Shown here piece by piece: positions 168 to 24,524 of a stretch of 25,036 nt of DNA. Source of the stretch: a virus; IMG/VR virus record IMGVR_UViG_3300020421_000130, positions 1 through 25,036 of that record. The stretch is one strand, 5' to 3'. How positions within the stretch are numbered: the stretch's first letter is position 1; every line of letters starts with the position of its first letter. The translations under genes and the position numbers were made by a program. Below the pieces are notes generated by a model, which saw only the letters and a program-made list of their open reading frames with translations, did no database searches and was not told where the DNA came from.

Positions 168-378
168 TGATTAACTCCTTTAATAGTGATTTAATTTCGT
201 TAATATCATCTTTCATACTAGCAACTTCTTCCTCAATTGTTTGTACTTTTTGATGCTCTTTATTATTCACCTCACGTCTTGCAATGTATTTTTCATGATC
301 TAAAGAATTCATATTTAATATCGCTCCAGTATGCGGATCTCGCCTAAGATCCGCGTGATCTTTTACCTTATACATCAT
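154..378 (-). CDS. Small hypothetical protein with C-terminal coiled coil, 74 aa
   Basis: The gene starts at ATG 378-376, whose last two bases and the following A form part of the TGA stop of the preceding 2515-residue gene (ATGA overlap), so translation is probably coupled. A second ATG follows immediately (375-373) and could be the true start, since the protein would then begin MYKVKDHADLRRDPHTGAIL. There is no clear Shine-Dalgarno sequence. The N-terminal half is basic. The C-terminal half (about residues 40-70) is a heptad-like run of V/I/L with E/K (QTIEEEVASMKDDINEIKSL), suggesting a short coiled coil. From memory, small MYKV-type proteins of this layout are common in T4-like cyanophages just after the DUF4815 structural gene. 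An assembly or structural accessory role is inference only. A perfect 8-base inverted repeat lies early in the coding sequence (333-354). Confidence 0.8.
   Translation of the reverse strand: MMYKVKDHADLRRDPHTGAILNMNSLDHEKYIARREVNNKEHQKVQTIEEEVASMKDDINEIKSLLKELINGPK
333..354. repeat. Perfect 8-bp inverted repeat (hairpin) near a gene start
   Basis: GCGGATCT at 333-340 is the exact reverse complement of AGATCCGC at 347-354, with a 6-base loop. In the minus-strand mRNA the stem lies about 25 to 46 bases into the 74-residue gene. It is GC-richer than its surroundings. There is no U-tract after it in the minus-strand direction, so a simple intrinsic terminator is unlikely. It may be an mRNA structure affecting stability or coupled translation, or chance. 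Confidence 0.5.
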
Positions 379-7928: not shown

Positions 7929-9479
7929 TTAGAACTGCAAAATGATTTTGATATCTTCTTTTTGGTTAGATGATCTGGTAATTGAAGGTCTGTTATCTAC
8001 GTAGATAATATTACCTGCATGTTTTTTAACTTCAGGACCTGCAACCCCACTGGTAAATGACTGACCAAGATAATATGTTTTATTATTTATTATGGTTGAG
8101 ATACCGCTAAAGGATGTATCAATTGCCAAATTAGATCCACTCGTTGGAATAATGGTTAAACTTCCACCGGACTCTGGTGCTGCGGTAAATGATTTCAAAT
8201 CAAATCCATACGTAGGATTTGTTAAAGCAGTTCCTACAGTGTTAAAACCTGCAAGAGATCTATCTTGCCAATACTTTAAAACTCCTGTTGTTGCATCATA
8301 ATTTACAACTCTACCAACAGCAGTGCTACCAGTAGCAACTGTTTGAGTAAAATATGAATCTGCCGTAAATGAAGCAGAACTATAACCAGTTCCGGTTAGT
8401 TTTAATGCGTTAAGAGCACTTGCTTTATCTGAAGTTAAAACCGTACCTGCTGTTACTTCTGGATTTTCTACAACACCAACTCTTGCAATTTGATTACCAG
8501 TTACAAAATCTGGATTTTCATTATCATTTTCAATTCTTGAATATAAAAGAACATTGAATGCTCCAAGTTCTCTGTAAATGTCTGCTCCATGACCTCCCTG
8601 TGGAGACATGATTACATCAAATGTTGGGATGGTTGTTCCCGTTGGAACTCCACCAGAACTAAGATTTAAACTGCCAAAAGAATATCCCGATCCTTGATTA
8701 GAAACTGTTACTCCACTAACTTTAGAATCAGCACCGACAGTTAAAGTGCATTCTGCTCCAGAACCATCACCTTCGATTGGAACTCTTGTATAAGTTTGAT
8801 TTGCTGTTCCGAGACCAACTCCATCATTAGTTACAGTAACAATTTTGATTGATCCATCTACAGCATTATCTCTAACAGTTGCATTATCACTTGAAGATGA
8901 CCAATTAGCAGGGACAGGCATAAAATCTGTTGATTCAAATTTTACAACCTCATTTGGTTTAATTGTATAAAGATACTTCCAAACATATCCATCACCACTA
9001 GACCCGGCAGATCTTGGTTCTAAATCTGTGAATAAAGGTTCATCCAAAGAAGGTTTGCCATTTGGATTATTTGGATCTGTTCCATTTTGCAAACAAATAT
9101 AAACTCTAAAGTCACTATTCATTACATAGTAAAATGCAGAATATAGATTTGTGGCACCGGATACGGCTGCGGTATTGGTCACACTATAATCATGTCGATA
9201 CATGTCATAGGTGGTGCCAGAAGTCCAATTTCTTTTAGGAATTACTTGCCTTACGTCAGAAGAGTTAATTTTCTTTAGAGCGATCATGGTATCCCAATAA
9301 TCATTCTCTTCTGAAAAATTATCCTTAGGAGCGGGGGGATTTGTGTCCCAGTCACTTTGATAATCTGATGGATTTGGTAGACCAATAAAAGAATAGTAGG
9401 AATTAGAACTGGAACTAACTCCAGATACAAAATTCTTTGCATTCAATATTCTAATTTGATCAGTTATAATTGCAGCCAT
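7929..9479 (-). CDS. gp8: Baseplate wedge subunit gp8, 516 aa
   Basis: gp8 is a structural component of the T4 baseplate wedge, where it joins gp7, gp10 and gp6. Matches to T4 gp8 as I remember it are clear at both ends. Residues 61-85 give DYWD...VIPKRNW (T4 has a VIPRRDW block). Residues 162-171 give GDGYVWKYLY (T4 GDGYVWEYLF). The last 32 residues give HAGNIIYVDNRPSI...NQKEDIKIILQF (T4 HSGEMIYMENRPPI...EEINILFTF). The protein is about 180 residues longer than T4 gp8 (334). The extra length is in the middle, where at about residues 245-262 there is a VTVSNQGSGYSFG strand of the same type repeated in the giant upstream protein. The gene starts at ATG 9479, 33 bases after the upstream stop, and has no obvious Shine-Dalgarno sequence. 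A late-promoter-like octamer lies in that gap. Confidence 0.95.
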   Translation of the reverse strand: MAAIITDQIRILNAKNFVSGVSSSSNSYYSFIGLPNPSDYQSDWDTNPPAPKDNFSEENDYWDTMIALKKINSSDVRQVIPKRNWTSGTTYDMYRHDYSVTNTAAVSGATNLYSAFYYVMNSDFRVYICLQNGTDPNNPNGKPSLDEPLFTDLEPRSAGSSGDGYVWKYLYTIKPNEVVKFESTDFMPVPANWSSSSDNATVRDNAVDGSIKIVTVTNDGVGLGTANQTYTRVPIEGDGSGAECTLTVGADSKVSGVTVSNQGSGYSFGSLNLSSGGVPTGTTIPTFDVIMSPQGGHGADIYRELGAFNVLLYSRIENDNENPDFVTGNQIARVGVVENPEVTAGTVLTSDKASALNALKLTGTGYSSASFTADSYFTQTVATGSTAVGRVVNYDATTGVLKYWQDRSLAGFNTVGTALTNPTYGFDLKSFTAAPESGGSLTIIPTSGSNLAIDTSFSGISTIINNKTYYLGQSFTSGVAGPEVKKHAGNIIYVDNRPSITRSSNQKEDIKIILQF

Positions 9480-9506: not shown

Positions 9507-9514
9507 TATTTATT
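9507..9514 (-). promoter_or_regulatory. Candidate late promoter AATAAATA upstream of gp8
   Basis: The minus strand reads AATAAATA here (plus-strand tatttatt), overlapping the stop codon of the 4157-residue gene and about 28 bases before the gp8 ATG. It fits the NATAAATA form reported for late promoters of the T4-like cyanophage S-PM2 and is one base from the T4 late consensus TATAAATA. The region is AT-rich and the octamer could arise by chance; its position in one of only two real gaps is the main support. Confidence 0.4.
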
Positions 9515-12500
9515 ATGTATTGGATGGGATATAATTTTTAGATCTGAGTTGAACAGATCTTTCAACCCTCATAGAGGTATTAATACCGATTACCCCACCA
9601 GAGGTATATGCAGAGTAAGAATTCACTCCTGCTCTAGATGCCATTACAAATTTACCCCAACTGTAATCTCCATATCCAGCACTAGTTGTAGTGGATATAG
9701 TTCCTGCAGTTCCAAAAGTAAATGTATCATCAATGTTAACAAATACTCTTCGGAAAACAGAGGTTCCGATTCCAATAATCTGTCTTTCTACGTTTTGAAC
9801 GTTTTGAACGACATAAACATTGTCAATAAATGATTTACCAACCCCTGCAGTAGATCCATCAGGATCAAGAGAAACGATTGAAGTTGATGCGTTACCAACA
9901 TTTGATCTCGTAACCACAAAGTAATCATTTACATTAAGAGTGCTCAGAGTTACTGCTGTTCCAACAATAGTAGATTCTCTAAGTTTAGAATCATATGGTA
10001 TATGTAGATCAAATATAAACTGGGTGGTAACTCCACTTACAGTTGTTGTTCCAAATCCAACAATAATTCCAGAGTCTCCGAGGAAGTTTGTAATAAGATT
10101 TTCTTCCTCACTATATGATGGAGAAGAAATCAATACACCAGGTGGTTTATCAGTTGTGTAACCTGTTCCAACATTAGTCAGAGAAAGAGTTGAAACAGTT
10201 CCTGCCGCGCTGATTGTTGCAGTGGCAGTAGCCGTGGTCAAACCTAACGTTACATCTTGCTGTGCAGTTCCAGCAATACTGACTGTTGGAGCAGATGTAT
10301 ATCCACTACCACCATCAGATATAACAAGAGACGATACTGTTCCTGCCGCACTCACCACTGCAGTAGCAGATGCTCCTACTTGTACAACTTGAGATACAAA
10401 TTTAACTTTGTCTTGGAATAAAAGACTCGTGTCATTTTCATTTCTTCCATTGAACAGTGGTCTGATTCTATCAACATAAACGTGAGTGGATCCAATACCA
10501 ACAGTTTTGGTTATGTATGCGTAAGGATAGATAAGTGGTTCATATAATTCTCTGTCCTTAGCGACACGTTTTTCATCGATAATTTTATCTTCAGTCTGTC
10601 TACACCATACAAGAGGTCTAAACAGAGTTTCATCTGTAGTATTACCAGGTCCAAAATATGGGAATGTTTGAACTTGATCGGTTGAATTAACTGCAGTAAC
10701 TGTTCTTGCATCTTCCTGTAAGAACTGATCTTGTCCACGACTTGGATCATATCCAAGTGTAACTGTATCACCTTTTTTAACAGTTTCAATAACCTCTCTC
10801 AAGATAACATCCTGGTCATCTCCACTTCCCTTATAGAAAATAATCTTACAAGAGTCTCCAGGTTTTGGTGCTTCAGCAAATGTAATAACACTACCACCGG
10901 GGAATTGATATCCTTGACCAGGTTCTTGTAAGATATCATTTACAAATACAAGTAAGACTTGTTCAACATCAATCTTAGATCCTCTATTGGATCTAATTGA
11001 AATCAGGTTACCACCAAGAGTTATATTAAATGTTTTGGTTGCACCGTCAAAATTACCAGATGGATCGTCAAGAGTTTGTAAAGTTCCTATCGTCCAACCA
11101 GTAAATTCATCAGAGAATACTTTTTGAATATCCAATTCAAACTGATTAAATGTTCCAGAAGTGGGAATTCCAGTCAAACCACCAACAGGAATGGTAAGAA
11201 TTTCTCCAGGAGCATATCCAACACCTTTATTATTAATAGAGAAGTCAATAATACTAGATCCATTACCAACAATAATGTCTATAGTTCCATTCAGTCCAGA
11301 CTGAGCAGTTCCAACATAGTTAAGAGGAATATTAGTGTAAGACAGAGGATCATCAATCTCCACAAATGGTTTGATTAAAGTGGTATATCCAGAACCTGGA
11401 TTCGTTATCGTAACCGAAGTTGATATATTACCAGTTCCTGTCAAGATGGTTGCAAAACCAACATGACTCATGGTTGCAATCCCGGTCGCACTTTCACCAA
11501 CACTAACATTTACAAATCCAATTTGTGGATTAGTAACAATAATTTTAGTTTGAGTTCCTTCAGAAATTATTGTAGAGATTGTATCTCCGGTCCCAATTCT
11601 AACAAAAGTAGATGCTGTGGATACAATTGTTACTGGAGTAAAATCAGTTCCAACTCCGATTGTGCAATTAGTTCCACTATTCAAAGTTCCAATGAGACTG
11701 AGAACACTTCCGGTATTTTCCAGATAGATTTCTGTGGACCCAACTCCAACAGGAGATGCAATATCAGCAAGAAATTCATATTTTGTTGGAACTCTATATC
11801 CAGATCCAGTGTTTCCTACACTGATCAAAGAAATAGTTCCGAGTCCAGAAACACTGGCAGTTGCTCCAGCAGAAACTAAAGGTTGATATCCTAATCCTGC
11901 TGTAGATCCTACGGAAAGGAGAACTCCACCAAGAGGAAGTCCTGCAGTATTTACATCACTTGTTGTAGATGATGCAGTTCCCGTAAATGTAATAGTGGTA
12001 ATACCGGCACTTTCTCCCATAGTATAGTTTGAACTATTTCCAGGTTCTTGGAAAATGTCATTAATTAAGATAACACCATTTCCAGTGGCTATGCCTGAGA
12101 TTTCAGAAGATCCTGCAGAAGTAAGGACATACGTTGTAGTTGTTCCATCAAATTGATCTGAAAGACTGTCAAAGATTACATTTCCAGAGTAAGTTTCTTC
12201 TGTAGTATCTGGTGTACCAGATCTCATAAACATTCTTCCTTGGAAAGTAGATCCAGTTGTAATACCAATCCAATCTCTTTCATCTGGTCTATTAGTAATG
12301 CTACCAATGGGTTGTCCGCCATAGGGAGCATCAACAAAGTTGAGGACATTATCAATGATATTGTAGTTACCTACAACTTTAGTGATTGTATCACCAGTTG
12401 CTCCTAATCCAATTTTAGTTCCTAATTGACCACGACGAACAGTAAATCTGTTTGTGCTACCAATACCAACACCAGTGATCTTCATAATTTCATCACCCAT

Positions 12501-15500
12501 CTTGATCAAATCAGATCCAAAGAATGATGTGATGCCACTCAGGAATACATCATTATCAACACTTGATACTCTATCTGCAAGAGTTTGAGTCTGAGCAGTG
12601 GATACAATAGGCGATTGAATTAAATTATCAAGAGCAAGCATGCACTTAGCATTTTGATTTGTTGCTATGAATCTATGAGAAGTTCCAACACCAACACTTT
12701 CAAGTTCAATAGGAACAGCAATTCTCTTCAGAGCATTTTCTGCACTTGATGCAAGTTTGATCTTATCGTCAGTAACTTTAATTACAAATATATCTTGATT
12801 GATTGGAAGGAATTCTGTATTACCAAGTCCAGCAAAACTTGTAGTTGCAATACCGATAGATGATGTAATTCCACCATTTCTATCATAACGAATCGCTTCA
12901 CCAGTTACGTAGAAGTGGTTAGGAATTCTAATGGTATCTGCATCAATACTAACAATATCACTATTGTTACCAACAAAATATCTCTCAAAAAGTGGAGCCT
13001 CTCTATGAGTTAAATTAAATGCTTTCTTAACAGCATTTTCAGTTCCTTCATACCTTGCATAATGTGAAACAATGAGACCATTATCAAAATCAATTTCATC
13101 CTTACTATCATCTTCAAGTCTCAGAGCATTCATAAATGTCTTAACCGTTACACCAATTCCAGCTTGTGGAGTGAAGGTCAGAGAAACACCACCACCAGAA
13201 GTTACTCTTGCACCAAATGTTCCAAGTCCAGTTACGTATGGCAAAGTGGTCTCAGTTTCTACCATACCAAATTCTTGAATATATGTTGTTGATGCTTGCT
13301 CAGAGGAAGAAAAATCATCAAGAACAAGCATTTCTCTCATTTCATGGTGATTGTGATTATTTCCGGTATCAGAAATTTGAACCATAAAGTATGCAGCATC
13401 ATATTCAGGGAGATAAGATGCAACTGTAGTGATTCCAGGAGTTCCAGATGCAGCAATTGTTGTAGTTTGTGCATCAAGGAAAGCATGTTTCATTTCATTT
13501 GTTCCAAATCCAACAATAGATTCAGAGGTAATGCCGATTTGCATAGTGTTTGCAGTTACTGCTACACCCGCAATTGGAATAAAATCAATCTTGATAGTAG
13601 ATCCATCAAAGAATGGATAGAACGTTCCAAATCCTGTTCCAACAAAAGATCCTTGATTTGTAGTCAACCTGCCAAATTCAGTTATATAGATTTCACTGCC
13701 ATCGTGAACCATATTCAACTCATCATATTGATACTCATTATTTGTCAGATCTGAAACGCAAGAATAAACTTTCATAGATCTAACAGTGTCTGCAACAGAA
13801 ACAACCGTTGTGCGACCACCTGTGCAGTCAACACTATCAGTCTGTATCTCAACTACGTTATCAAAGAATACTGTGCTTCCAACTCCAATTACATTGTCAT
13901 CAAGGTGATATGCAATATTGACAATTTGATAGTCATTAAATGCAAAGTTATTGGGGAAGAATTGTAATGATGCGTTAACACCAGAAACAACCATATCAAA
14001 TGAACCAAGTTCTCCAAAGGTATCTGTTCTTCCGTATTGATTAATGTATGCAAAAGTTCCGTCTTGAACCATTGTGACAATATCAAATTGTCTTTCACTA
14101 ACAAATCTTTCATCCTTGGCATAGATGAAATACTTCATTGCTCTACTGTTATTAATATTAAAACTATCAATTAAAGCAAATCTTGATGATCTAGGATTGC
14201 TATTAAACAGTCCACTTACATTGTCAATCTCAACTGCCCTATTACCAAATGACTCAAAGTAATCTTGTAAAATTCTACTTGCAAAAATTACTTCATCGGA
14301 ATATACAGAACCGGCTATGTCTAAAGAATTTTCTGCAACTAAATCAAAATTATAAACACAATTTAAATCAGCAACTCCATAAAGATCATTAACGACTGTA
14401 AAGTAAGACAATTCAGTTGATAATCCAACTGCCATTGAATTTGAAGTAACTTCAGAGAACGATGCTGGAGTTTCAAGTTGATAATCAGAGAATTTTTTAA
14501 ATCCAGCAGTGTGATTAGTAACACTTACTGCATCATTCCAAGAATCATAATCAACTCTTGATCTGAGAGAATATGAGAAGTTTTGGTAGTAAAAACTATC
14601 CTGCACTCTCTGCATATTGGCATTTAAGAAACCAGAATCAGTTAATGATCCTTGCAGAACTCTAGATGTAGAATCAGTTTCAATTAAAGATTCATAAGTC
14701 GTAATTGAGGAAGCAATTCCTTGAGTTTTAGATGCAGTTCCTCTAATGACTTCATTGACTAAGAAATCTTTATTTGTAGAAACTCTAAGATCACCAGTTT
14801 TTCTATCCCAACTTTCAACAGTTCCTGAAGTAGTATCAGATTCAACTATTTCACCATCAGCAAAATTATTATCTTTTAATACAATATCAAAGATTGGGAA
14901 ATGTTTTTCTGGAATAATTCTTCCACCTGAATTAAATGAATCAAACTCACCAACAAATTCTCCTCTATTAGTGTCAAACAATCCTTCGAGACTATAAGCA
15001 ACAGTTGCTCCAACGCCACCAAGATTTTGATCTACATTAATAATTGGGAATAACTTATAGTCATACCCAGAGGAATTGAATCCTCTTCCGGTTGAACCTA
15101 CGCCAACACTAATATTTTCAATTAAGACTTTATCTCCAACTGCAATTGGGAAAGTTTCAGCAGTGCTAAATCCAACCGATAAAGTTACAGTAACTTGATT
15201 TGTTGTTGTATTAAATCCAATGGTACTAATACCAACACCATTAGTATTTGCAGTAGGTAAAATCGTTGGTAAGGTATTACTAATTCCTTTGGTATTTTTA
15301 AGAATAGTTACTTGCTCATCACCAAGATTGTATTGTAAATCTACATCTGTAATTCTCTCATCTGTTTTTCCATCAAATACTAATAATTTGGGAGCGGATG
15401 AATATCCTCTACCACCAGAACTAACTCCAATAAATTCAAATGATTTTAAAGATTCAATTTTGATGATATTTGGTAACGTGACTGATGGTTTTAGAGTTTT

Positions 15501-18500
15501 ATCAGTAGGGAAGTCAAAACCAATGTCCTGAATTCTGGTTTTATCAATTTGACCGACTATGTTACTATCTGCTTCTAAGATAGCACCTGTTCCATTTGCA
15601 GATGTAACTGTAGTTACTCCAGGAAGTGCATAATATGCCTTACCACCATTTACCACTTCAATTTGATTAATTGGACCCTTAGTATGGGTGCAATCAGTTT
15701 CATATGTGATCTTAGCTGCTGAAGTAGATGAAATATAAGATGACTGCTCTGGAGTCACCCCAATTGTAAATTCAAAGAAATTGGTGGATGCTGTTGATAC
15801 TCTATGCTTTCCATTAAGGAGACTTTTTTTAATTTCTATGGTATTATTTTGGAAAACATCTGCATCTACATTAACTTCAGACTTAACTGTGGGTAATTCA
15901 CTTTCATATATGGGATCTAACCTATAATAAAGTTCATCTGGAGTGTTTTCATTAACAACTAAAGAAACTTTAGCAGTTCCATTAATACCCGGTCTTCCAG
16001 TTTTAGTTACGTCATAATTTTTACCATCACTAATTTTTCCAGTGTATATGTTAGTGAAATTCTTATCAGCATATAAGTTAAATTCAAAAGAGGAATAATC
16101 TGTGGTTTGCTGTGTATGAGATAAAGAAGAATCCGTTAAGATAAAATCGACTGTAGAATTCTTATAAAGCTTCAATGCTGGGTTGATAGGATTAATAGTT
16201 CCGCCACCACCAGTGCTTGCAATGCCAACTCCAGCAGGTATATCTCTTACTGCATCGTGGAAAGTTTCTGCTAATTTGAAGGTATCACTATCAATTACAC
16301 CAACATAATAAATTTCTTCATTAGTTAATCCCTCAGCAACATCTCCTGAGGTATAAACAACTTTTTGACCATTAACAAATCCATGATTAGTGATAGTGAT
16401 TACACCAGTAGAGGTGTTAATACCAGTTGCACTATATGATTTTGGATTAATGATTATCTTTCTATTAAAATCATTATAACTGACATTGAACGAAGAGGAT
16501 ACTCCTGGATTTACATCCAAGAATATATCATGATCAACTGCAAGTTCGTGTGATTGTCCTGTAGAAACAGTTACCCTATTTCTATTAACAACGCCAGTAA
16601 TTACATTGTAGTTTGTTTTTAAACTATGAACTACTCCTGTTCCTATTCCCAAAAATGCTAGGGTTGTTGACGCAGTGGTTCCAATGCCGATAAAAGTGCC
16701 TGTGGTCCCAAGACCAACTCTTACTGTTGACAGTCCGATTAAATTATTTGCTACTTTAGCAACAAATAATTGAGTTCCGTCTGCAACTGTTGTCCCAACA
16801 CCAACATTGGTCTCATCTTGAACAATAATTCCTTTTCCACCATTAGCAGAATATGTAACAAGATCACCAGTTTGTAAATTATGATCTTTGATGAATAGTG
16901 TTTTGGTTGGAATAATTGTAGTGGTGGCACCTGTTCCTGGATTTGAGAAGAAGATTGTACTTCCAATTCCAACTCCAGCAGTGCTACCCAAACCAACTGT
17001 TTCTGATGGATTAAAGTAAATTTGTTTGTTTACTTTATATGCAAAATCAGTTTTAAATCCAGCATCAATAGAAAGTTTTCTTTGGGTTATGGTAGCTCCA
17101 GTTCCAACAGTGTGTGATACTCCAACAACTCCATTAACTGCTCTTAAAACTCTAAGTCTTGATAATCTTGTATCAACATTTAAAACCTTTACTCTTTCAG
17201 TTCCAATTTGAAGGATATCATTTTCTCTAATATTTGGATAGTTTAAATCACCTGCAACATTAAAGAAAGTTACAATACCTGTCGCTTCAAGAGTTCCGAT
17301 TCCAACACCAGTTGTCCCAACACCAGTTAATGTATAAACGTTGGTTGTAATTCCAGCAGAATAAACTCCCTCTAAATCAGAAGCAGTTGTTGAAACTCCA
17401 GATATACGAATAAAATCTACATTTTGGAATTGATGTGGTGTCTCTGCAAATAGTAGATATTTTCCTTTTCCATTTGGATAAAATTCAACACTACTAATCG
17501 AACTAGTTGCAATACTTACACTTTCAACAGACCTACCAAGAACTCTTGAGACCCTTGCAGAAACGCCTGTGCCGCCTGTATTTGACTCATTGAATACAAC
17601 TGGGTCATTTACTTTATAATTGTCTCCTCCGGTCAAAATACCAACGGATTGAATTGATCCTTTCTTAGTGTTGACAATTTCTATGGATTGCTGCAAGTCA
17701 TTTGGAAGAGAAATATAATCATATCTTTCCTTTCCATCAAAATAATTAAATGGAGTAGTATTTTTTACGTATCCAGAAGAATTAAAATCATAATCATCTT
17801 GATTAGAGGTTTTTTTGAAATTAAACTCATTTGGTTTTGCGTGAAAATTTTCACCCACCAAATATGGGAATACTGGTGCCCTAAATCCTGTATATGGTGA
17901 TTGAGTATCTGCAATGGTGTCTATTGTTGCAAAATACACATAAGATCCATTTGGAAAATCTGGGGTAACGCAATGTCTTCCATTATTCTCATCAAGAACA
18001 TCTTCAGATGACAAGTTTTGATAAGTAAAATCTTCAACAAAGAAACCACTTGGCCACACGGTGAGTGGAGGTCTATTTGCCTTTGAGGTATCTTCAATAT
18101 AACCACTCTTCATCTGAGTAACAGCACCACCAGATCTCTTTGAATATCCATATGGTCCGTAAATTGGATGGCCATCATATGACCAACCAATAATTGGCGA
18201 ATGTTGAGTTGATTCTTGCTCCTGTCTTGTATTAACGTTTATTTTAAGATCAGTATCTCCATAAAGAATTTTTCCGTCTTGATCTACAGCATAAACAAGT
18301 TGTCTTAATTTTCTTGGTGCGTAAATGTGAGCGTATTGTAATTCAAAATCTTCATTTACACCATTTACAATTATACCGTCATCTTCTTTAATGGAAGACA
18401 CATACCTTTGTGCTAAATTAACTCTCCAATTTTGAAGTTTTGCATTTAAAGTTGCACCTCTTCCTGGAAATACAACTCTAATAGTGGTAGTTGTTTGATC

Positions 18501-21500
18501 ATATCCAATTCCAGATTCTAATACCTTTACTGAAGTTACTAAACCATTTGACAGTACAGGAACAACAACTGCTCCGATACCATCACCATCAATGACAAGA
18601 TCTGGAGGAGAATTGTATTTTTTACCAGAATTTGTTACTAATACTTCTTGAAGTTTTCCATTATTAATAATGGGTTGCATTTGTGCATCAGTTCCAGAAA
18701 TTAAAGTAACAGATGGTGGTCTATTCAGATTTAATACCTCTGAAGATCCATATCCTACGCCATTATTTGAAAGATTAACTGAAGTTACTTCTCCACGGAA
18801 TATTGGTTGTAGTTGTGCTTGGAAAGTTTCTTGTCCAATAGAAGATATGCCAATTGATCCAGCAATAGTGACAGAAATTTCTGGATAGTTAAAGGAATGA
18901 GTTCCAGTGCCAGTTGAAGTTAATTCAACAAATTGATTTGTATCATAGAAGAACTTTCTTGAAGACGTTGTTAAACCTACATTTGTTAATCTAAAATTAT
19001 CATCGTCGATCTTAATTACATAGTATTCTGTTCCATCAGTTAATCCTCCAATGGTGGAAGTGCCTGCGGTATATTTTACTTTTTCTCCACTTAAGTAATC
19101 ATGATTTTTAATAGTAATTCTATTTTGAGAAGTGCTGACTCCAGCAATAGTAACTGATCTCTGCTTATTTTCATATCCAGTTCCATTAGATACTACGGAA
19201 ATAGATTCAACTACAGATTTTTTATTGACACTCTGTAAACTGTGAACACCATTACCAAATGAAGTTAATACTACAGTATTAATTCCAGATAAAACATCAC
19301 TTACAGTATTAAATAATTTAACAGTTTCATTATTCTCTACAGAAACATGATACTTTGCATCAGTTGTTAATCCACCAATACCATCTTGCCCGTTTGTTTT
19401 GTATATTACTTGTTCAGTATTTCTAAACTTGTGATATGTGCCCAACCCGATTGTAGATACCGTAGCACCAAGTCCGACTCTATTTGACGCTGCTTCTGAA
19501 AAGAATGAAACTGAGTGATCAATCAATTTCATATTTGGTTGTGCAGCTGCACCAGTTCCATTACCACCAGTAATTGTTATCCTTGGTGTGTCTGCATAAT
19601 CAAATCCTGGATCAAGAACTCTAATTGAATCCAGAGATCCAAGAATTGATACATTTCCTGTGGCTCCTGTTCCTACTGAATCTTCAATGAAAACTAAAGG
19701 GGGATCTATAATATCATAATCTTGACCGGAAGCAACTACTTCTACTTCTTCAATTTTTCCATAGTATACAACATCACTACTTTTATAATTTAATATCTCT
19801 ACTCCATTAATAAGAACTCCAGTAAATCCTCCAGGAGTTGTAGGAGTTAATTTACCAGTATGCTGAGCACGTTTTGGAATTTCTCTAACAATTTTTTGAG
19901 ATGTTAAAGTCTGATCCTTAAATTCAAAAGGTGTTACTTTATTATTAATTACTTTTACTGTACTTTCTACTTCTATAAATCTTTCATTAAAAATATCACT
20001 CCTACTTTTTGCAAATTTTACAGTGGTATCAGAAACTCTCTTTACATAATAAAGACCATCCGAAAAGTTTGCTCCGAGTGAAGTTCCTCTTACAGACCTT
20101 GTTTTAATAGTGTTGTCTTCATCAACATATTTTTCGGTGGTTACTTCACCAGTATAATAAACAGCATCTCCTGTATAGAAGTTATGTTGCCCTAATCTTG
20201 AGATTTCAACATCTGTTCCTGCAGGGACTGTTTCTGAAAAAGTTACGGATCTATCATCTGTATTCAATGCCGCAGTAAAATATGAAGGAATTGACGAAGA
20301 TGCAACAAGTAAATTATTATCACTATCAAATACAGCCTGCACATTTGCCTGGGTTAATCCAGCAGATGCAAATTTGGAGGCATTTCCTTTTAAAATATTT
20401 CTCTTTAATGTATATGTTCTATTTGAACTTAAATTACCTTGCCCTTTGACTGAAATAGATGAGGGTGAGGTAACTTGATAAATTACGGATGACTTCTCAT
20501 TTCCAAGATCATCCGTTAGTACGACACTATCATTGATTCGGAAATAATGATCCTTAAACAAGAAAAGTTCGTAACTGCTATCAGAGGAGTCAATTAACTT
20601 AACAAGCACAACTCTATGAGTTGACGCATAGTTATAAAACCAATTCTTAAAAATTTGTTCGGATTTATCTTTACCTAAAGTTCTAATTTTAGCAGAGTCT
20701 CCATCTCTATACTCTTTGGTATTTTCCGGAACTTCTAATTTGCTAAGAACAGAATTGATTCTTACGGTTATTATTTCATCTTGACTACGAAATGATCTTC
20801 CATATGCATAAGTATTAATTCCAACGTCTTCACCATCGGGTATGGTTCCAGTTATATTTGAACAACCAAAAAATTCTGTTAAAGTTTTAGATGAATATGA
20901 TACAATACCAGTTGTAGTGTCACTATAAGTAACTGATAACTCTCCAGTTGTACCAAAACCAACCGTAGAATCTACATTAAGAATAGATGCTCCAGATCCA
21001 ACTTGCCCAATTAATTTTGTTTTGGGATGAATTGAAAATGCACCGTAAATTGCACCATCAACACTAACATCTCTATTGTATCCTGCATCAAGACTTAATT
21101 TGTAAAAACTCTTTCCGGTTCCTACTTGCAGTTTTTCTGCCCGTGTAATTGGAGCAAATGCTTTGGTGATATTAGTTTTAAATGCATAAGGATCTTGAAA
21201 CAAAGTTGCTTGCTCAAGATCTAAGGGATCACCGGAAACTGGTTCCACAACTAGGTCATTTGTAATTCTATAGTCAGAATTTGATGGAGTAAATAAGAAA
21301 TCTCTTGGTCTTACAACGGTTACATCTTCATTATATAATGCCCTAAACAAAATTTCAAAAGATCTATCTGTTCCTCTGCTCAGATAAAAATCTTTAGATT
21401 GTTTTACAAATAAATTCTGATTAAGATCCTCAGATAAAGGTCTTTCGTCAAGTAAAGGTAAAAATTGTTTTTTGGTTTTCGTTAAAAATTCTTTTAAAAA

Positions 21501-21986
21501 TAAGCAACTAAGGTTTGTAATAGTTGCGCCTTTTTTATGTTCTTGAGTTGAAGTTGATGTAAATTCTAAATTATCTGTATTACCTTGTTCTCTATAAGAA
21601 GTAATTCCAACAAATCCTCTTACACACCCAGTAAAAGTAGAATCTGTCTTATCAGTATATGTTATAATCTCATCATTGATTTGAATTAAACCGTAAGTAT
21701 CTGGAAATCCTTTAGTTCCTGTTGGAGTATTTGCCAGATCAACTTTTACAACGGTATCATTAAAAGATATATCTTCTAACAATACTGAAGAATAAGTTAA
21801 ATTAGTTGTATTATCAAGTTTAATGTAACTATCAATATTCTGAATTAAATCAATGGGAGCACCTTGAAACTCCTGTGCTTGATAATATTGTTTTAAAAAT
21901 TCAGAAATAAGAGGAAACTCCTCTCTCACATAAGAGGGGAGTTGATTCTGTACTATGTTGTTAAACTGAACTCTCTTTTCTGACAT
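9513..21986 (-). CDS. Giant gp7-like baseplate wedge/tail structural protein, 4157 aa
   Basis: The gene starts at ATG 21986, 12 bases after the gp6 stop, and ends 33 bases before gp8, so it occupies the position of T4 gene 7. Residues 1-60 (LPSYVREEFPLISEFLKQYY) and 162-240 (FLKEFL...SRGTDRSFEILFRALYNE...VVRPRDF) resemble the C-terminal third of T4 gp7 (YLSDGY...TKGIEASYKFLFKVLYNE). The rest is predicted beta-rich and strongly modular. Six H-x-(F/L)-x-x-G modules lie between residues 600 and 3107. A YHYH-like domain lies at about 1255-1385. VG(V/L/I)G(T/S) runs lie at about 1640-1790. Three tandem repeats lie at about 2613-2958, and two NDI(L/F)QEPG modules at about 3274-3722. Dispersed GSGY strands occur from about 750 to 3950. 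T4 gp7 is 1032 residues, so this is about four times longer. No transmembrane segment or signal peptide is visible. A gp7 wedge core with fibre-like extensions is my reading; the function of the extension is unknown. Confidence 0.85.
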   Translation of the reverse strand: MSEKRVQFNNIVQNQLPSYVREEFPLISEFLKQYYQAQEFQGAPIDLIQNIDSYIKLDNTTNLTYSSVLLEDISFNDTVVKVDLANTPTGTKGFPDTYGLIQINDEIITYTDKTDSTFTGCVRGFVGITSYREQGNTDNLEFTSTSTQEHKKGATITNLSCLFLKEFLTKTKKQFLPLLDERPLSEDLNQNLFVKQSKDFYLSRGTDRSFEILFRALYNEDVTVVRPRDFLFTPSNSDYRITNDLVVEPVSGDPLDLEQATLFQDPYAFKTNITKAFAPITRAEKLQVGTGKSFYKLSLDAGYNRDVSVDGAIYGAFSIHPKTKLIGQVGSGASILNVDSTVGFGTTGELSVTYSDTTTGIVSYSSKTLTEFFGCSNITGTIPDGEDVGINTYAYGRSFRSQDEIITVRINSVLSKLEVPENTKEYRDGDSAKIRTLGKDKSEQIFKNWFYNYASTHRVVLVKLIDSSDSSYELFLFKDHYFRINDSVVLTDDLGNEKSSVIYQVTSPSSISVKGQGNLSSNRTYTLKRNILKGNASKFASAGLTQANVQAVFDSDNNLLVASSSIPSYFTAALNTDDRSVTFSETVPAGTDVEISRLGQHNFYTGDAVYYTGEVTTEKYVDEDNTIKTRSVRGTSLGANFSDGLYYVKRVSDTTVKFAKSRSDIFNERFIEVESTVKVINNKVTPFEFKDQTLTSQKIVREIPKRAQHTGKLTPTTPGGFTGVLINGVEILNYKSSDVVYYGKIEEVEVVASGQDYDIIDPPLVFIEDSVGTGATGNVSILGSLDSIRVLDPGFDYADTPRITITGGNGTGAAAQPNMKLIDHSVSFFSEAASNRVGLGATVSTIGLGTYHKFRNTEQVIYKTNGQDGIGGLTTDAKYHVSVENNETVKLFNTVSDVLSGINTVVLTSFGNGVHSLQSVNKKSVVESISVVSNGTGYENKQRSVTIAGVSTSQNRITIKNHDYLSGEKVKYTAGTSTIGGLTDGTEYYVIKIDDDNFRLTNVGLTTSSRKFFYDTNQFVELTSTGTGTHSFNYPEISVTIAGSIGISSIGQETFQAQLQPIFRGEVTSVNLSNNGVGYGSSEVLNLNRPPSVTLISGTDAQMQPIINNGKLQEVLVTNSGKKYNSPPDLVIDGDGIGAVVVPVLSNGLVTSVKVLESGIGYDQTTTTIRVVFPGRGATLNAKLQNWRVNLAQRYVSSIKEDDGIIVNGVNEDFELQYAHIYAPRKLRQLVYAVDQDGKILYGDTDLKINVNTRQEQESTQHSPIIGWSYDGHPIYGPYGYSKRSGGAVTQMKSGYIEDTSKANRPPLTVWPSGFFVEDFTYQNLSSEDVLDENNGRHCVTPDFPNGSYVYFATIDTIADTQSPYTGFRAPVFPYLVGENFHAKPNEFNFKKTSNQDDYDFNSSGYVKNTTPFNYFDGKERYDYISLPNDLQQSIEIVNTKKGSIQSVGILTGGDNYKVNDPVVFNESNTGGTGVSARVSRVLGRSVESVSIATSSISSVEFYPNGKGKYLLFAETPHQFQNVDFIRISGVSTTASDLEGVYSAGITTNVYTLTGVGTTGVGIGTLEATGIVTFFNVAGDLNYPNIRENDILQIGTERVKVLNVDTRLSRLRVLRAVNGVVGVSHTVGTGATITQRKLSIDAGFKTDFAYKVNKQIYFNPSETVGLGSTAGVGIGSTIFFSNPGTGATTTIIPTKTLFIKDHNLQTGDLVTYSANGGKGIIVQDETNVGVGTTVADGTQLFVAKVANNLIGLSTVRVGLGTTGTFIGIGTTASTTLAFLGIGTGVVHSLKTNYNVITGVVNRNRVTVSTGQSHELAVDHDIFLDVNPGVSSSFNVSYNDFNRKIIINPKSYSATGINTSTGVITITNHGFVNGQKVVYTSGDVAEGLTNEEIYYVGVIDSDTFKLAETFHDAVRDIPAGVGIASTGGGGTINPINPALKLYKNSTVDFILTDSSLSHTQQTTDYSSFEFNLYADKNFTNIYTGKISDGKNYDVTKTGRPGINGTAKVSLVVNENTPDELYYRLDPIYESELPTVKSEVNVDADVFQNNTIEIKKSLLNGKHRVSTASTNFFEFTIGVTPEQSSYISSTSAAKITYETDCTHTKGPINQIEVVNGGKAYYALPGVTTVTSANGTGAILEADSNIVGQIDKTRIQDIGFDFPTDKTLKPSVTLPNIIKIESLKSFEFIGVSSGGRGYSSAPKLLVFDGKTDERITDVDLQYNLGDEQVTILKNTKGISNTLPTILPTANTNGVGISTIGFNTTTNQVTVTLSVGFSTAETFPIAVGDKVLIENISVGVGSTGRGFNSSGYDYKLFPIINVDQNLGGVGATVAYSLEGLFDTNRGEFVGEFDSFNSGGRIIPEKHFPIFDIVLKDNNFADGEIVESDTTSGTVESWDRKTGDLRVSTNKDFLVNEVIRGTASKTQGIASSITTYESLIETDSTSRVLQGSLTDSGFLNANMQRVQDSFYYQNFSYSLRSRVDYDSWNDAVSVTNHTAGFKKFSDYQLETPASFSEVTSNSMAVGLSTELSYFTVVNDLYGVADLNCVYNFDLVAENSLDIAGSVYSDEVIFASRILQDYFESFGNRAVEIDNVSGLFNSNPRSSRFALIDSFNINNSRAMKYFIYAKDERFVSERQFDIVTMVQDGTFAYINQYGRTDTFGELGSFDMVVSGVNASLQFFPNNFAFNDYQIVNIAYHLDDNVIGVGSTVFFDNVVEIQTDSVDCTGGRTTVVSVADTVRSMKVYSCVSDLTNNEYQYDELNMVHDGSEIYITEFGRLTTNQGSFVGTGFGTFYPFFDGSTIKIDFIPIAGVAVTANTMQIGITSESIVGFGTNEMKHAFLDAQTTTIAASGTPGITTVASYLPEYDAAYFMVQISDTGNNHNHHEMREMLVLDDFSSSEQASTTYIQEFGMVETETTLPYVTGLGTFGARVTSGGGVSLTFTPQAGIGVTVKTFMNALRLEDDSKDEIDFDNGLIVSHYARYEGTENAVKKAFNLTHREAPLFERYFVGNNSDIVSIDADTIRIPNHFYVTGEAIRYDRNGGITSSIGIATTSFAGLGNTEFLPINQDIFVIKVTDDKIKLASSAENALKRIAVPIELESVGVGTSHRFIATNQNAKCMLALDNLIQSPIVSTAQTQTLADRVSSVDNDVFLSGITSFFGSDLIKMGDEIMKITGVGIGSTNRFTVRRGQLGTKIGLGATGDTITKVVGNYNIIDNVLNFVDAPYGGQPIGSITNRPDERDWIGITTGSTFQGRMFMRSGTPDTTEETYSGNVIFDSLSDQFDGTTTTYVLTSAGSSEISGIATGNGVILINDIFQEPGNSSNYTMGESAGITTITFTGTASSTTSDVNTAGLPLGGVLLSVGSTAGLGYQPLVSAGATASVSGLGTISLISVGNTGSGYRVPTKYEFLADIASPVGVGSTEIYLENTGSVLSLIGTLNSGTNCTIGVGTDFTPVTIVSTASTFVRIGTGDTISTIISEGTQTKIIVTNPQIGFVNVSVGESATGIATMSHVGFATILTGTGNISTSVTITNPGSGYTTLIKPFVEIDDPLSYTNIPLNYVGTAQSGLNGTIDIIVGNGSSIIDFSINNKGVGYAPGEILTIPVGGLTGIPTSGTFNQFELDIQKVFSDEFTGWTIGTLQTLDDPSGNFDGATKTFNITLGGNLISIRSNRGSKIDVEQVLLVFVNDILQEPGQGYQFPGGSVITFAEAPKPGDSCKIIFYKGSGDDQDVILREVIETVKKGDTVTLGYDPSRGQDQFLQEDARTVTAVNSTDQVQTFPYFGPGNTTDETLFRPLVWCRQTEDKIIDEKRVAKDRELYEPLIYPYAYITKTVGIGSTHVYVDRIRPLFNGRNENDTSLLFQDKVKFVSQVVQVGASATAVVSAAGTVSSLVISDGGSGYTSAPTVSIAGTAQQDVTLGLTTATATATISAAGTVSTLSLTNVGTGYTTDKPPGVLISSPSYSEEENLITNFLGDSGIIVGFGTTTVSGVTTQFIFDLHIPYDSKLRESTIVGTAVTLSTLNVNDYFVVTRSNVGNASTSIVSLDPDGSTAGVGKSFIDNVYVVQNVQNVERQIIGIGTSVFRRVFVNIDDTFTFGTAGTISTTTSAGYGDYSWGKFVMASRAGVNSYSAYTSGGVIGINTSMRVERSVQLRSKNYIPSNT
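10822..11062 (-). repeat. NDI(L/F)QEPG module, copy 2
   Basis: This segment reads NFDGATKTFNITLGG, then VFVNDILQEPGQGYQFPGG, VITFAEAPKPGDSCKI and IFYKGSG. It matches the copy at 11970-12165 in the order FDG-x-T/K-x-(F/Y), NDI(L/F)QEPG, a Y, and ITF. The shared strands suggest a beta-sandwich unit of about 65-80 residues. Confidence 0.65.
11970..12165 (-). repeat. NDI(L/F)QEPG module, copy 1
   Basis: This segment reads QFDGTTTTYVLTSAG, then VILINDIFQEPGNSSNYTMG and GITTITFTGTAS. It is the N-terminal of two such modules in the giant protein and is separated from the second by about 300 residues that contain three GSGY strands. Confidence 0.65.
12665..12920 (-). repeat. H-x-(F/L)-x-x-G / YYV / DxFxL module, copy 6
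   Basis: The landmarks are NHFYVTGEAIRYDRNGGI, IFVIKVTDDKIKLASS and GVGTSHRFIATNQ. The order and spacing match the five earlier copies in the same protein, although this one stands about 1100 residues after copy 5. Confidence 0.65.
13113..13408 (-). repeat. Tandem ~120-residue repeat, unit C
   Basis: This is the third of three tandem units. It reads YDAAYFMVQISD, then MLVLDD, TYIQEFGMVE, a Gly-rich turn, and SLTFTPQAGIGVTVKTFMNA. It aligns with units A and B at the aromatic strand, the acidic pair, the Y-I-x-(E/Q)-(F/Y)-G core and the F-x-P strand. A His cluster (NNHNHHEMREM) sits where the other units are acidic or polar. Confidence 0.7.
13519..13785 (-). repeat. Tandem ~120-residue repeat, unit B
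   Basis: This unit reads VRSMKVYSCVSD, LNMVHDGSEIYITEFGRL, a GTGFGTF turn and IKIDFIPIAGVAVTANTMQI. It is the clearest bridge between units A and C: MVHDG resembles MVQDG of A, and FIPIAGVAVTANTM resembles FTPQAGIGVTVKTF of C. Confidence 0.75.
13893..14149 (-). repeat. Tandem ~120-residue repeat, unit A
   Basis: This unit reads SRAMKYFIYAKDERF, VTMVQDGTFAYINQYGRTDT, GSFDMVVSG and ASLQFFPNNFAFNDYQIVNI. It begins the three-unit tandem array at about residue 2613 and is preceded by a non-repeated, helical-looking segment (VIFASRILQDYFESFGNRAV). Confidence 0.7.
16185..16387 (-). repeat. H-x-(F/L)-x-x-G / YYV / DxFxL module, copy 5
   Basis: The landmarks are TNHGFVNGQKVVYTSGD, EIYYVGVIDSDTFKLAETF and a GVGIASTGGGG turn. 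It follows a partial unit (GQSHELAVDHDIFLDVNPG) that keeps only the first strand pair. Confidence 0.7.
16615..16885 (-). repeat. H-x-(F/L)-x-x-G module, copy 4, with VGxG(T/S) insert
   Basis: The landmarks are KDHNLQTGDLVTYSANGGKG, LFVAKVANNLIGLSTVRVGL and VVHSLKTN. Between the second and third landmarks sits a run of GIGTT-type units not present in copies 3 and 5, so this copy is longer (about 90 residues). Confidence 0.65.
17880..18230 (-). other. YHYH-like domain within the giant protein
   Basis: At about residues 1255-1385 the protein reads IIGWSYDGHPIYGPYGYS, a spacer, EDVLDENNGRHCVTPDFPNG and SYVYFATIDT. This is the order seen in YHYH-family domains (DG-x-PIYGP, then LDE-x-NGR, then G-x-YHYH). 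The signature YHYH is YVYF here, so both histidines that name the family are absent. Homologous segments occur in other marine T4-like phage tail proteins as I recall. A structural rather than catalytic role is inferred. Confidence 0.7.
18889..19105 (-). repeat. H-x-(F/L)-x-x-G / YYV / DxFxL module, copy 3
   Basis: This is the best-formed copy. The landmarks are KNHDYLSGEKVKYTAGT, GGLTDGTEYYVIKIDDDNFRL and GTGTHSFNYP, about 70 residues in all, directly followed by a GSGY-rich segment. Confidence 0.75.
19228..19436 (-). repeat. H-x-(F/L)-x-x-G / YYV / DxFxL module, copy 2
   Basis: The landmarks are YHKFRNTEQVIYKTNGQ, GGLTTDAKYHVSVENNETVK and GNGVHSLQSV. The GGLTxxxxYxV segment is almost identical in layout to copy 3, about 110 residues downstream. 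Confidence 0.7.
19920..20190 (-). repeat. H-x-(F/L)-x-x-G / YYV / DxFxL module, copy 1
   Basis: The landmarks are GQHNFYTGDAVYYTGEV, SDGLYYVKRVSDTTVKFAKS and KVTPFEFKD. It is the first copy after the gp7-like N-terminal part, and its last strand lacks the THSF consensus. Confidence 0.6.
21207..21986 (-). other. gp7-like wedge core domain (residues 1-260 of the giant protein)
   Basis: This part resembles the C-terminal third of T4 gp7 in three consecutive blocks: a helix ending in FLKQYY, a helix FLKEFLTKTKKQFLPLL, and the block SRGTDRSFEILFRALYNE followed by a V-x-V-x-x-P-R-D strand. A separate module (GLIQINDEIITYTD...CVRG...EHKKGATITN, residues 98-160) is inserted between the first and second helices. 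Comparison is from memory of T4 gp7, not from an alignment program. Confidence 0.65.
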
Positions 21987-21998
21987 TTTATGATTCTA

Positions 21999-24119
21999 TT
22001 AGTAACCGTATGAACCGCCGCCGCCACCACCGCCGGAGCTGCCGCCAGTTGATGGAGTGGATGAAGGAGTAGATGAAGATGTGGATGGTGCTGAATACGT
22101 GCCTTGAGAGACTGTACCCGTTGTTGTTCCTGTGTTGACTGTGGATCCTGCAGCAGTAGATCTAGTAGTTGCTATTGGTACGCTACCTCTACCACCTGGA
22201 CGAACTAACATACCATCTGCATAACTGGATGTAACAATATAGTTAGACGCTGACGGATCGAGTCCTGATGCAATTTCATCAACTATAGTTTCAAAATTGC
22301 TGCTACCAACTTCAAGTTGTAAATAAAGATCTTGTAGCCCTACTACGTCATTTGATGTTGGAGCTCCGGATATTTCGATAATCGTTTGACCATCTTTAAT
22401 TTTTCCTCCCAAAATGTTTATGGGGTTCAAAGTTAAAATACCCTGTTTATAATTAATAGTTCCAATATTTCTTCTTAAAATAGATGCACTTGTAGAATTT
22501 ACAGATGGAACTGAGAATAAGAATAATTCACCAGTTTCTCTATTGGTATCAGGTAAATCTGAAATATAAACGTCAGAGTTAATACCATCTATTCTAAAAG
22601 CAGAAGTTTTAATATTATACCCATTCATACTTTTAATGTAGAATGCATTACCAAAACCAATTTGATACTCAACTAAAGCATTTAGAGTTACTCGCAAATC
22701 ACGTCTCATTTGAATCGTCGTAATATTTGACGTTATAGAGTCATGACTATCATCAATTATCTTTAAGAATTTACTATACTTGAATCTCGCTCCATACTTA
22801 TTTAACTCAGTTGATTCAGAGTACTTTTGAACATTATTTTGAACAACCGTAGATACAAGTTCCGAAGATGGTGTTAAGTTTGTATTGTAATATACCTTTG
22901 AGTCACTTTCAATGTAAAGATACTTAAGATCAAGTATTTCCGGAACAATTCCAGCAACAGCAAACTTTTTAAGTTTAAGTTTAATATTCTCTTTAATAAG
23001 ATTTGGCAAATAGTCACCAAATCTTGGTTTAATACTAATGAAAACCTTTCCATATTGTGGAGGAATCAACTCTTCTCCGCCAAAAACTGAAATTGATTCG
23101 GTTTCTGGATAAATTTTTGATGGAATTAGAGTTTCATAGTCATTTGATGTCAGTGCTCTGTTTTGAGTTGCATAAATTCGTGTTGCATACTTCTTAACAG
23201 ACTCAACAGTTTCAATGTTCTCACCACCTGCAGCAATAAGACCTGTTGACAATAGTGAGATGCCAGATGTTACGTTATATTCAACACCATTTCTTGTATA
23301 GGTGACTCTACCTCCAAAATTGAATTGACTGATGCCGTTTGCAGAATCACCATTAGTAACAATATAATTTGCTGTGACATAATTTCCTTCTTCTAGTGCT
23401 TTTCCGAAAATATTGTCTCCAAAAATTAATTCATATCTTTCGTCTTCAATTTCTTGTAGATAATAAACTCTTGATTCGCCATTAATATCAAAGAGACTAT
23501 CTTGTAAACTATATTTGGCCGCGGCAGTTGAAAACTGATTAGTTTTAACAGAAACTCTAATCAAATCGCTGTCAATACCTGCGTTAGGTAAAATAAATTT
23601 TTGATTTGGATTTGTAGCAGAATATGTAAAGTTTGACTCTAAAAGAACACCTTCATAAACTGTTAATTCATCAAAAGATGCTATACCATCAAAAACTGGA
23701 ACTGTTACATCTTCTAAAATTGAAAAAACAAATGATTGTGAAGCAAAAGATCCACTTGTAGTTGCAATAACACCTTTTTTTAAGGTGAGTGTTGCTGGAG
23801 ATGGAGTAATATCTGATGTATCAACGAAAAAACTAACCGATGCTGTTGCTGCCTTTCTTGATCTTGGAACATATCCAATATTTCTTGCTAAAGCAACGAC
23901 ATTTTCTCTTAAAGTCGCGCTATCAATGAATACCTCATTCGCAACCATGTTTGCGTTATACGAGGTAATATAAGTGTTGTATGCCAGAACATCAATAATA
24001 GTCGAGAGATTAGAACCCTCAAAATCATAATCCGTAAAGTTGGAATTTGATCTTAGATATTCTTTGAGTGATGTTTTAACCTGGTCAAAATCCAGATTAG
24101 AAAAATTAACTAGTGGCAT
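21999..24119 (-). CDS. gp6: Baseplate wedge subunit gp6, 706 aa
   Basis: gp6 forms the inner ring of wedges in T4-like baseplates, binding gp25, gp53 and gp7. The N-terminus holds the family block at residues 40-90: TIIDVLAYNTYITSYNANMV, ANEVFIDSATLRENVVALAR and NIGYVPRSRKA. Mid-protein segments (YYLQEIEDERYELIFGDNIF, then YATRIYATQNRALTSNDYET) are typical of gp6/Baseplate_J-like proteins. Length is close to T4 gp6 (660). The start is ATG 24119, 3 bases after the gp25 stop, with AAGG about 6 bases upstream. The last 65 residues are unusual: a Ser/Thr/Pro-rich run followed by GGSS and seven glycines, ending SYGY. That tail is encoded by a GC-rich patch at 22010-22050 that stands out from the AT-rich surroundings. 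Confidence 0.95.
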   Translation of the reverse strand: MPLVNFSNLDFDQVKTSLKEYLRSNSNFTDYDFEGSNLSTIIDVLAYNTYITSYNANMVANEVFIDSATLRENVVALARNIGYVPRSRKAATASVSFFVDTSDITPSPATLTLKKGVIATTSGSFASQSFVFSILEDVTVPVFDGIASFDELTVYEGVLLESNFTYSATNPNQKFILPNAGIDSDLIRVSVKTNQFSTAAAKYSLQDSLFDINGESRVYYLQEIEDERYELIFGDNIFGKALEEGNYVTANYIVTNGDSANGISQFNFGGRVTYTRNGVEYNVTSGISLLSTGLIAAGGENIETVESVKKYATRIYATQNRALTSNDYETLIPSKIYPETESISVFGGEELIPPQYGKVFISIKPRFGDYLPNLIKENIKLKLKKFAVAGIVPEILDLKYLYIESDSKVYYNTNLTPSSELVSTVVQNNVQKYSESTELNKYGARFKYSKFLKIIDDSHDSITSNITTIQMRRDLRVTLNALVEYQIGFGNAFYIKSMNGYNIKTSAFRIDGINSDVYISDLPDTNRETGELFLFSVPSVNSTSASILRRNIGTINYKQGILTLNPINILGGKIKDGQTIIEISGAPTSNDVVGLQDLYLQLEVGSSNFETIVDEIASGLDPSASNYIVTSSYADGMLVRPGGRGSVPIATTRSTAAGSTVNTGTTTGTVSQGTYSAPSTSSSTPSSTPSTGGSSGGGGGGGSYGY
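22002..22196 (-). other. Ser/Thr-rich and polyglycine C-terminal tail of gp6
   Basis: Residues 642-706 of gp6 run through TTRSTAAGSTVNTGTTTGTV and STSSSTPSSTPSTGG to a seven-glycine stretch and SYGY. The composition is disordered and linker-like, and the glycine codons are mostly GGC/GGT, making a short GC-rich island. I know of no matching tail in T4 gp6. Confidence 0.8.
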
Positions 24120-24122
24120 TTT

Positions 24123-24524
24123 TTACCTTGTTGGCTGCAAGACGAATTCCAATTGTTGTGCAGGTATATCTGCACCAATAATGTCATATATGATAATTAC
24201 GTCAAATTGATTATTTTCAAAGTTAGGAAAAGTCTGAACTTTTCTCAATCTGACTCTTGGTTCATTATTTTCAATAGATCTTTCAATCTCATCCCTAATA
24301 TCTGCCGCAGTTAAGTCATCAATATTGTCAAAAAGCGATTTCGAGACCCTTGATCCAAATCTTTCATTAAAAAACTTCTCTCCAGGTTGGGTAAAGACAA
24401 TATTTCTAATGGAACGTGCTATTGCGTTCTCATTTTTGATGGCAATTAAGTCATTGGTCAAGGGATTAATCTTGAATGTCATACTGACATCCTTAAAACC
24501 TTGACTAACCCTCTCTAATGGCAC
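24123..24524 (-). CDS. gp25: Baseplate wedge subunit gp25, 133 aa
   Basis: gp25 is a small wedge protein of the GPW/gp25 family that contacts gp6 and the sheath at the baseplate centre. The family pattern is plain: NENAIARSIRNIVFTQPGEK (residues 31-50), FGSRVSKSLFDNID (56-69), then IRDEIERSIENNEPRVRL and a C-terminal strand ending LEFVLQPTR. Length is almost the same as T4 gp25 (132). I chose the GTG at 24524 as start because the resulting N-terminus, PLERVSQGFKDVSMTF, matches cyanophage homologues that begin MPxERVSQGFKD as I recall; the first in-frame ATG (residue 15) would cut that conserved part. No good Shine-Dalgarno sequence precedes the GTG. The gene stops 3 bases before gp6, and a candidate late promoter lies 22 bases upstream. 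Confidence 0.95.
   Translation of the reverse strand: MPLERVSQGFKDVSMTFKINPLTNDLIAIKNENAIARSIRNIVFTQPGEKFFNERFGSRVSKSLFDNIDDLTAADIRDEIERSIENNEPRVRLRKVQTFPNFENNQFDVIIIYDIIGADIPAQQLEFVLQPTR

Follow-up and report, generated by a model that had tools for sequence, protein, structure and literature searches.

A probable split-core gp7 with a long internal arm in the baseplate wedge of a marine T4-like cyanophage

In contractile systems one gp7-type chain forms a bundle with two gp6-type chains (PMC10457771; PMC10811340), and BW3/gp7 is the attachment site of receptor-binding proteins (RBPs) in T4, A511 and pyocin (PMC10811340). In the literature, proteins of the BW3 class such as XM1 gp17, pyocin PA0619 and P2 gpI combine this wedge bundle with a periphery that holds the RBPs. 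An example of this is XM1 gp17, a protein of 242 residues in which two flexible parts hold the tail spikes (PMC10457771). T4 gp7 (PDB 5IV5, 5HX2), encoded between gp6 and gp8, has an N-terminal extension of 640 aa, followed by a core (residues 644-895) whose two halves, here called A and B, are interrupted by domain V and lie approximately 100 residues apart.

The status of gp7 in marine T4-like phages has been less clear. The gene was listed among the non-cyanophage core genes, its divergence splitting gp7 into several clusters (Sullivan et al., 2010; PMC3037559), and T4 gp7 was later stated to be absent from pelagi- and cyanomyophages, seemingly replaced by VrlC (PMC7029224). Very large proteins are found in the virions of these phages. 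S-SZBM1_208 (6619 aa) is present in the virion proteome with 71 peptides (PMC9146016), and ORF122 of S-CREM2 (1937 aa), encoded between gp6 and gp8, yielded 91 unique virion peptides; a study which used HHpred assigned it as an intermediate baseplate wedge protein (PMC10665884). From the same cluster, the sequence analysed here is that of S-H34.

We analysed a 25,036-nucleotide IMG/VR virus record, hereafter the window, whose nearest genome is that of Synechococcus phage S-SM2 (80% DNA identity, 99% coverage). The gene order is gp25-gp6-[giant gp7]-gp8-VrlC, identical to that of S-SM2. The giant ORF encodes 4157 aa (449 kDa) with no internal stops and is flanked, like T4 gene 7, by gp6 and gp8 (Table 1), as the earlier note on this DNA had said; the gp6 neighbour, the expected wedge-core partner, retains its N-terminal domain (Gp6-like_1st, E 1e-15). 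The phrog_2885 profile ('baseplate wedge subunit') scores 4285 bits across residues 1-4150. S-SM2 gp7 (ADO97439.1, 4156 aa) is collinear with the window protein and 77% identical to it from end to end, and its record already reads gp7, baseplate wedge initiator, so that a protein of this type has borne the name before. Such 'baseplate wedge initiator' records in cyanophages come without core boundaries, a second core half or an insertion architecture, and many database records call these giant proteins structural or hypothetical. VrlC of the window (375-7922, 2515 aa) contains DUF4815 in three stretches (Pfam E 1e-52), and its position next to gp8 is conserved in cyano-, pelagi-, Stenotrophomonas and Sinorhizobium phages.

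Core homology to T4 gp7 can be added to gene position. The earlier note had likened the first 240 residues of the protein to T4 gp7, and this likeness is beyond chance, although the direct match spans only ~35-50 residues and the remainder is reached through intermediates. The two motifs concerned are TKGIEASYKFLFKVLYNE, at residue 737 of T4 gp7, and SRGTDRSFEILFRALYNE, at residue 203 of the window protein. When residues 1-260 were compared by tblastn with 50,697 phage records, T4-like gp7s matched below the cyanophages, and in nearly all such records among the matches listed the aligned part of the query was ~179-246. A profile of window-type residues 1-250 together with distant N-termini was searched against 177,635 distinct PDB sequences; its best match was T4 gp7 (E 8e-8), followed by a related gp7 (E 1.4e-6) and then by an unrelated protein (E 0.12). 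The profile-profile comparison with T4 gp7 proposed in the earlier note was also significant: against a T4-type gp7 family of 24 members, window residues 191-225 aligned with T4 725-759 (P 96, E 2.3e-9), and the reversed T4 family, used as a control, gave no match. By these sequence comparisons the window protein is a gp7 equivalent.

Other searches place limits on the likeness. The whole window protein found no match in the PDB by phmmer, showed no significant sequence match to XM1 gp17, pyocin PA0619 or P2 gpI, and contains no Pfam or profile match to the N-terminal domains of T4 gp7 (aa 1-640). These domains are missing from every non-T4 relative examined too, and we do not take them as defining for the wider gp7 family. 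PF23786 (Baseplate_wedge) gives 17.7 bits, under its curated cut-off of 27 bits. An AlphaFold2 (AF2) model of residues 1-250 is of low confidence (pLDDT 63), with helices at 8-15, 18-23, 25-40 and 44-55, and in Foldseek gp7 was not among its matches, the inserted beta domain dominating.

The intermediates are short gp7s from Ochrobactrum phage OC (631 aa), Stenotrophomonas phage BUCT608 (503 aa) and Sinorhizobium phage phiM7 (1006 aa), all of which pass the PF23786 cut-off. OC gp7, like PF23786, is built on an N-terminal core in which both halves, A and B, are present. This contiguous OC-type core (~280 residues) is collinear with T4 gp7 644-895 (hhalign P 98.2, E 5.7e-14, 239 columns), finds T4-like gp7s of several phages by tblastn over 94-96% of the query (E ~1e-4), and short cores have T4 gp7 as their top PDB sequence match (E 3e-10 to 1e-8). 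A predicted structure of a close relative (L018) has gp7 chains as its top three Foldseek matches (9f4a, 5iv5 and 5hx2; best E 7.5e-10 across 296 columns), but the whole short-core model superposes poorly (TM 0.27, rmsd 22), both AF2 models being of modest confidence. The first 250 residues of the window protein align with the short cores at E 1.6e-19 (hhalign) and correspond to just their first half. The N-terminal helices were placed via these short cores, themselves aligned to T4 from residue 644; with the RGT helix in the second part of half A, they make up a region homologous to T4 644-759.

The second half of the core lies far downstream. A core B profile built initially from OC, phiM7 and BUCT608 alone, cyanophages being left out, matches window residues 2450-2506 (E 1e-8), and the iterated profile residues 2449-2505 (E 1e-24). 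In profile-profile comparison residues 2388-2519 align with the short cores at E 2e-14. On T4 gp7 itself the core B profile scores 10-13 bits at ~862-908 (E 0.03-0.6), which is below significance, so that the step from B to T4 depends on the short cores and their collinearity with T4; through them B is homologous to T4 ~862-895. At the level of sequence, the T4 core ~644-895 is thus present in the window protein as aa 1-250 plus aa 2449-2505, with ~2125 residues inserted. The earlier note had the core complete within the first 240 residues and the remaining ~3900 made up of arm modules, neither of which agrees with a second core half ~2200 residues downstream. With the core split by an insertion, the arm would therefore be a loop built into the core, not a tail behind it. 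Unlike T4 gp7, the protein has no N-terminal extension, its A and B halves lie ~2200 residues apart, and it continues for 1640 residues at the C-terminus; the A-B distance is 82 residues in OC gp7 and 2203 in the window protein.

Table 1. Features of the giant gp7 gene and its neighbours in the window.
Feature	Position	Strand	Basis or remark
Giant gp7 (baseplate wedge) gene	9513..21986	-	phrog_2885; S-SM2 gp7 orthologue
Core half A, part 1: N-terminal helices, aa 1-61	21804..21986	-	Counterpart of T4 gp7 helical domain 643-689
Insertion site 1, ~100-aa beta domain, aa 62-160	21507..21803	-	Alignment; AF2 pLDDT ~70-83 over much of it
Core half A, part 2, aa 161-250	21237..21506	-	HMM A2 167-245, E 1e-29; contains RGT helix (T4 gp7 725-759)
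Insertion site 2, ~2125-aa arm, aa 251-2375	14862..21236	-	Position between HMM A2 and HMM B
YHYH domain within inserted arm, aa 1255-1357	17916..18224	-	Pfam PF14240, E 2.8e-23
Candidate domain V counterpart, aa 2376-2440	14667..14861	-	Tentative; aligned to short cores in the 2388-2519 comparison
Core half B, aa 2449-2505	14472..14642	-	Counterpart of T4 gp7 ~862-895
C-terminal arm, aa 2520-4157 (~1640 residues)	9516..14429	-	Comparison with DSL-LC02, S-H34 and phiM7
gp6, expected wedge-core partner	21999..24119	-	Pfam Gp6-like_1st, Gp6_C-I and Gp6_C-III above cut-off
gp8	7929..9479	-	Pfam Phage-Gp8, E 9e-20
gp25, baseplate wedge / sheath initiator	24123..24524	-	Pfam GPW_gp25, E 1.6e-13

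Insertions of graded length are seen across the relatives. The beta domain at site 1 is missing from OC, phiM7 and BUCT608, and is bigger, by ~500 residues, in P-SSM4, S-RIM8 and S-SZBM1, where the A2 region begins at aa 668-676. Foldseek matched this domain weakly to tail or baseplate chains of GP4 (8jov) and JBD30 (8rk3), none significantly. At site 2 the gap between A and B varies from 81 to 2794 residues: 81-89 in OC-like proteins, 88-105 in the T4 type (in which Pfam domain V, 766-861, occupies it), 165-362 in numerous environmental phages, 502-810 in phiM7-like proteins, 513 in pelagiphage HTVC008M, 1572-1783 in S-PM2, S-H34 and S-CAM1, 2142-2343 in window-type proteins and P-HM2, and 2704-2794 in S-RIM8, S-SZBM1 and P-SSM4. 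Long-insert proteins do not form one clade on a core-only tree, which hints at repeated expansion; support for the deep branches is weak, and the tree serves as a hint only. The gp7 of P-SSM4 (L008:2145-24083) reaches 7312 aa, with ~3700 residues after core B, and is followed by gp9 and another baseplate gene before gp8, unlike the window.

The gp7 arms contain repeats, some of them common to gp8. Window gp8 has 516 aa, compared with 334 aa in T4, and its residues 167-267 are modules also present in gp7 arms, which suggests exchange of modules between baseplate proteins.

In all likelihood the window protein is the wedge-core and peripheral-anchor gp7 of a T4-like baseplate. If the structures of T4, XM1 and pyocin are a guide, two gp6 chains would be joined by the N-terminal helices in the wedge core bundle, and the separated A and B pieces would come together as a single wedge fold. 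The intervening 2125 residues would then form a loop that emerges from the wedge and returns to it, with both ends anchored there, and a second, optional arm may consist of the 1640 residues at the C-terminus. No correspondence could be shown between the loop of XM1 gp17 and the insertion site of the window protein. Six copies per virion would be expected by extrapolation from T4 (PMC3004832). The arms may carry or constitute the host-contact periphery, because receptor-binding proteins dock on gp7/BW3. We tentatively suggest, as a plausible model short of the likely, that one loop of the wedge core is an insertion hot spot (~80-2800 residues) in T4-related phages, and that the cyanophage periphery is a closed loop anchored at two ends which replaces gp10, gp11 and gp12.

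Whether such arms bind receptors at all is a narrower question. They could be purely structural, for instance a cage or belt in place of the T4 gp10/gp11/gp12 periphery, and the absence of further genes between gp7 and gp8 and between gp8 and VrlC in the window and S-SM2, where T4 has gp9-gp12 after gp8, is in keeping with this. Proteins of the gp7/BW3 type anchor receptor-binding proteins in known systems (PMC10811340), and S-PM2d081, the gp7 counterpart of S-PM2, is among the large ORFs mutated late in chemostat co-culture with the host, although these late mutations were mostly not repeatable (PMC9910659). An exclusively structural role is thus possible, if somewhat doubtful.

Much less probable is the reading of the earlier note, in which a complete gp7 core in the first 240 residues is followed by a linear C-terminal arm. 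The core does start at residue 1, and aa 191-225 give the best direct match to T4, both as this reading expects, but the second half is found at 2449-2505 and, in all of the relatives, at the corresponding position. Genes of this family can also end at B: phiM7 gp7 ends ~14 aa and S-H34 gp7 ~48 aa beyond it, with the C-terminal arm nearly absent, and the DSL-LC02 ORF ends 4 residues after B, the next ORF partly matching the window-type C-terminus. The arm which these proteins have in common is therefore the one within the core, that at the C-terminus being optional. The DSL-LC02 stop (L012:27540-27560) reads TAA CAA ATG, with the second ORF in the same frame; it may be a real gene split, or a nonsense change or sequencing error, and is used with caution, S-H34 and phiM7 supporting a gene end near B independently of it. 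Another locus, L173, where the ORF ends ~100 aa past B, was rejected as evidence for an optional C-terminus, an overlapping long ORF in another frame suggesting a frameshift.

It is likewise improbable that core B is an independent mobile module within gp7 which does not complete the wedge fold. The weak direct scores of B against T4 would be consistent with mobility, as would the fact that other repeated arm modules are not confined to a single protein, some being shared between gp7 and gp8. Against this, a six-frame search of 5090 segments from the window and 20 phage regions gave a single A and a single B for each phage, none of them outside the gp7 ORF and B always after A (T4-type B was sub-threshold in this search), and exactly one significant copy of B is present in all 11 cyanophage gp7 proteins tested, that of the window among them. 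The short relatives have A and B contiguous and jointly aligned to T4. Both halves were strong in 120 environmental loci, and among 45 loci with A and without B, 38 were cut by the locus end, 5 were T4-type and 2 (L125 and L155) had broken frames, the B of L155 being found in another frame.

That the gene encodes a giant adhesin or tail fibre at the gp7 locus, gp7 itself having been lost or replaced by VrlC (PMC7029224), would suit a protein with most of its length, including a YHYH domain, outside the core and many records reading structural or hypothetical, but is very improbable given significant gp7 core homology by several methods and a VrlC that coexists as a separate gene beside gp8. 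The same split gp7 core is found in other marine phages. In HTVC008M a 1016-aa protein between gp6 and gp8 matches the A profile at residues 169-244 (E 6e-19) and the B profile at 758-811 (E 7e-16), and in S-SZBM1_208 the halves occupy 676-749 (A) and 3524-3581 (B). A gp7 core and a separate VrlC are both present in HTVC008M, S-SM2 and the window, which contradicts the 2020 statement that gp7 is missing from cyano- and pelagimyophages, and the suggestion of the earlier note that marine T4-like phages said to lack gp7 carry its core was right. The HTVC008M protein (YP_007517921.1, L201:5760-8810) is annotated 'head closure Hc2'. PHROGs 701, 4406, 19630 and 3465 match the gp7 core and are filed under head, packaging or connector.

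The direction of change between T4 and the other phages can also be considered. The core lies at or near residue 1 in all non-T4 relatives examined, and ~640 preceding residues are found only in T4-type gp7; in the minimal XM1 orthologue (242 residues) the core is again N-terminal, with helices at 1-48 (PMC10457771). The N-terminal extension of T4 gp7 is therefore probably derived, and to describe the core of the window protein as moved to the N-terminus, as had been proposed, is probably to put the change backwards, given the N-terminal core of the non-Straboviridae relatives examined and of XM1.

Assignment of the gp7 core accounts for misleading annotations such as head closure Hc2, head and packaging, and provides an explicit architecture, open to test, for a protein that is among the largest in abundant marine phages. 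If this architecture is true, structure prediction must pair residues ~2200 apart, and deletion of the C-terminus and deletion of the arm would be different experiments. The graded insert lengths at one site make it possible to ask how new host-contact surface is gained by a conserved injection machine whose core stays unchanged.
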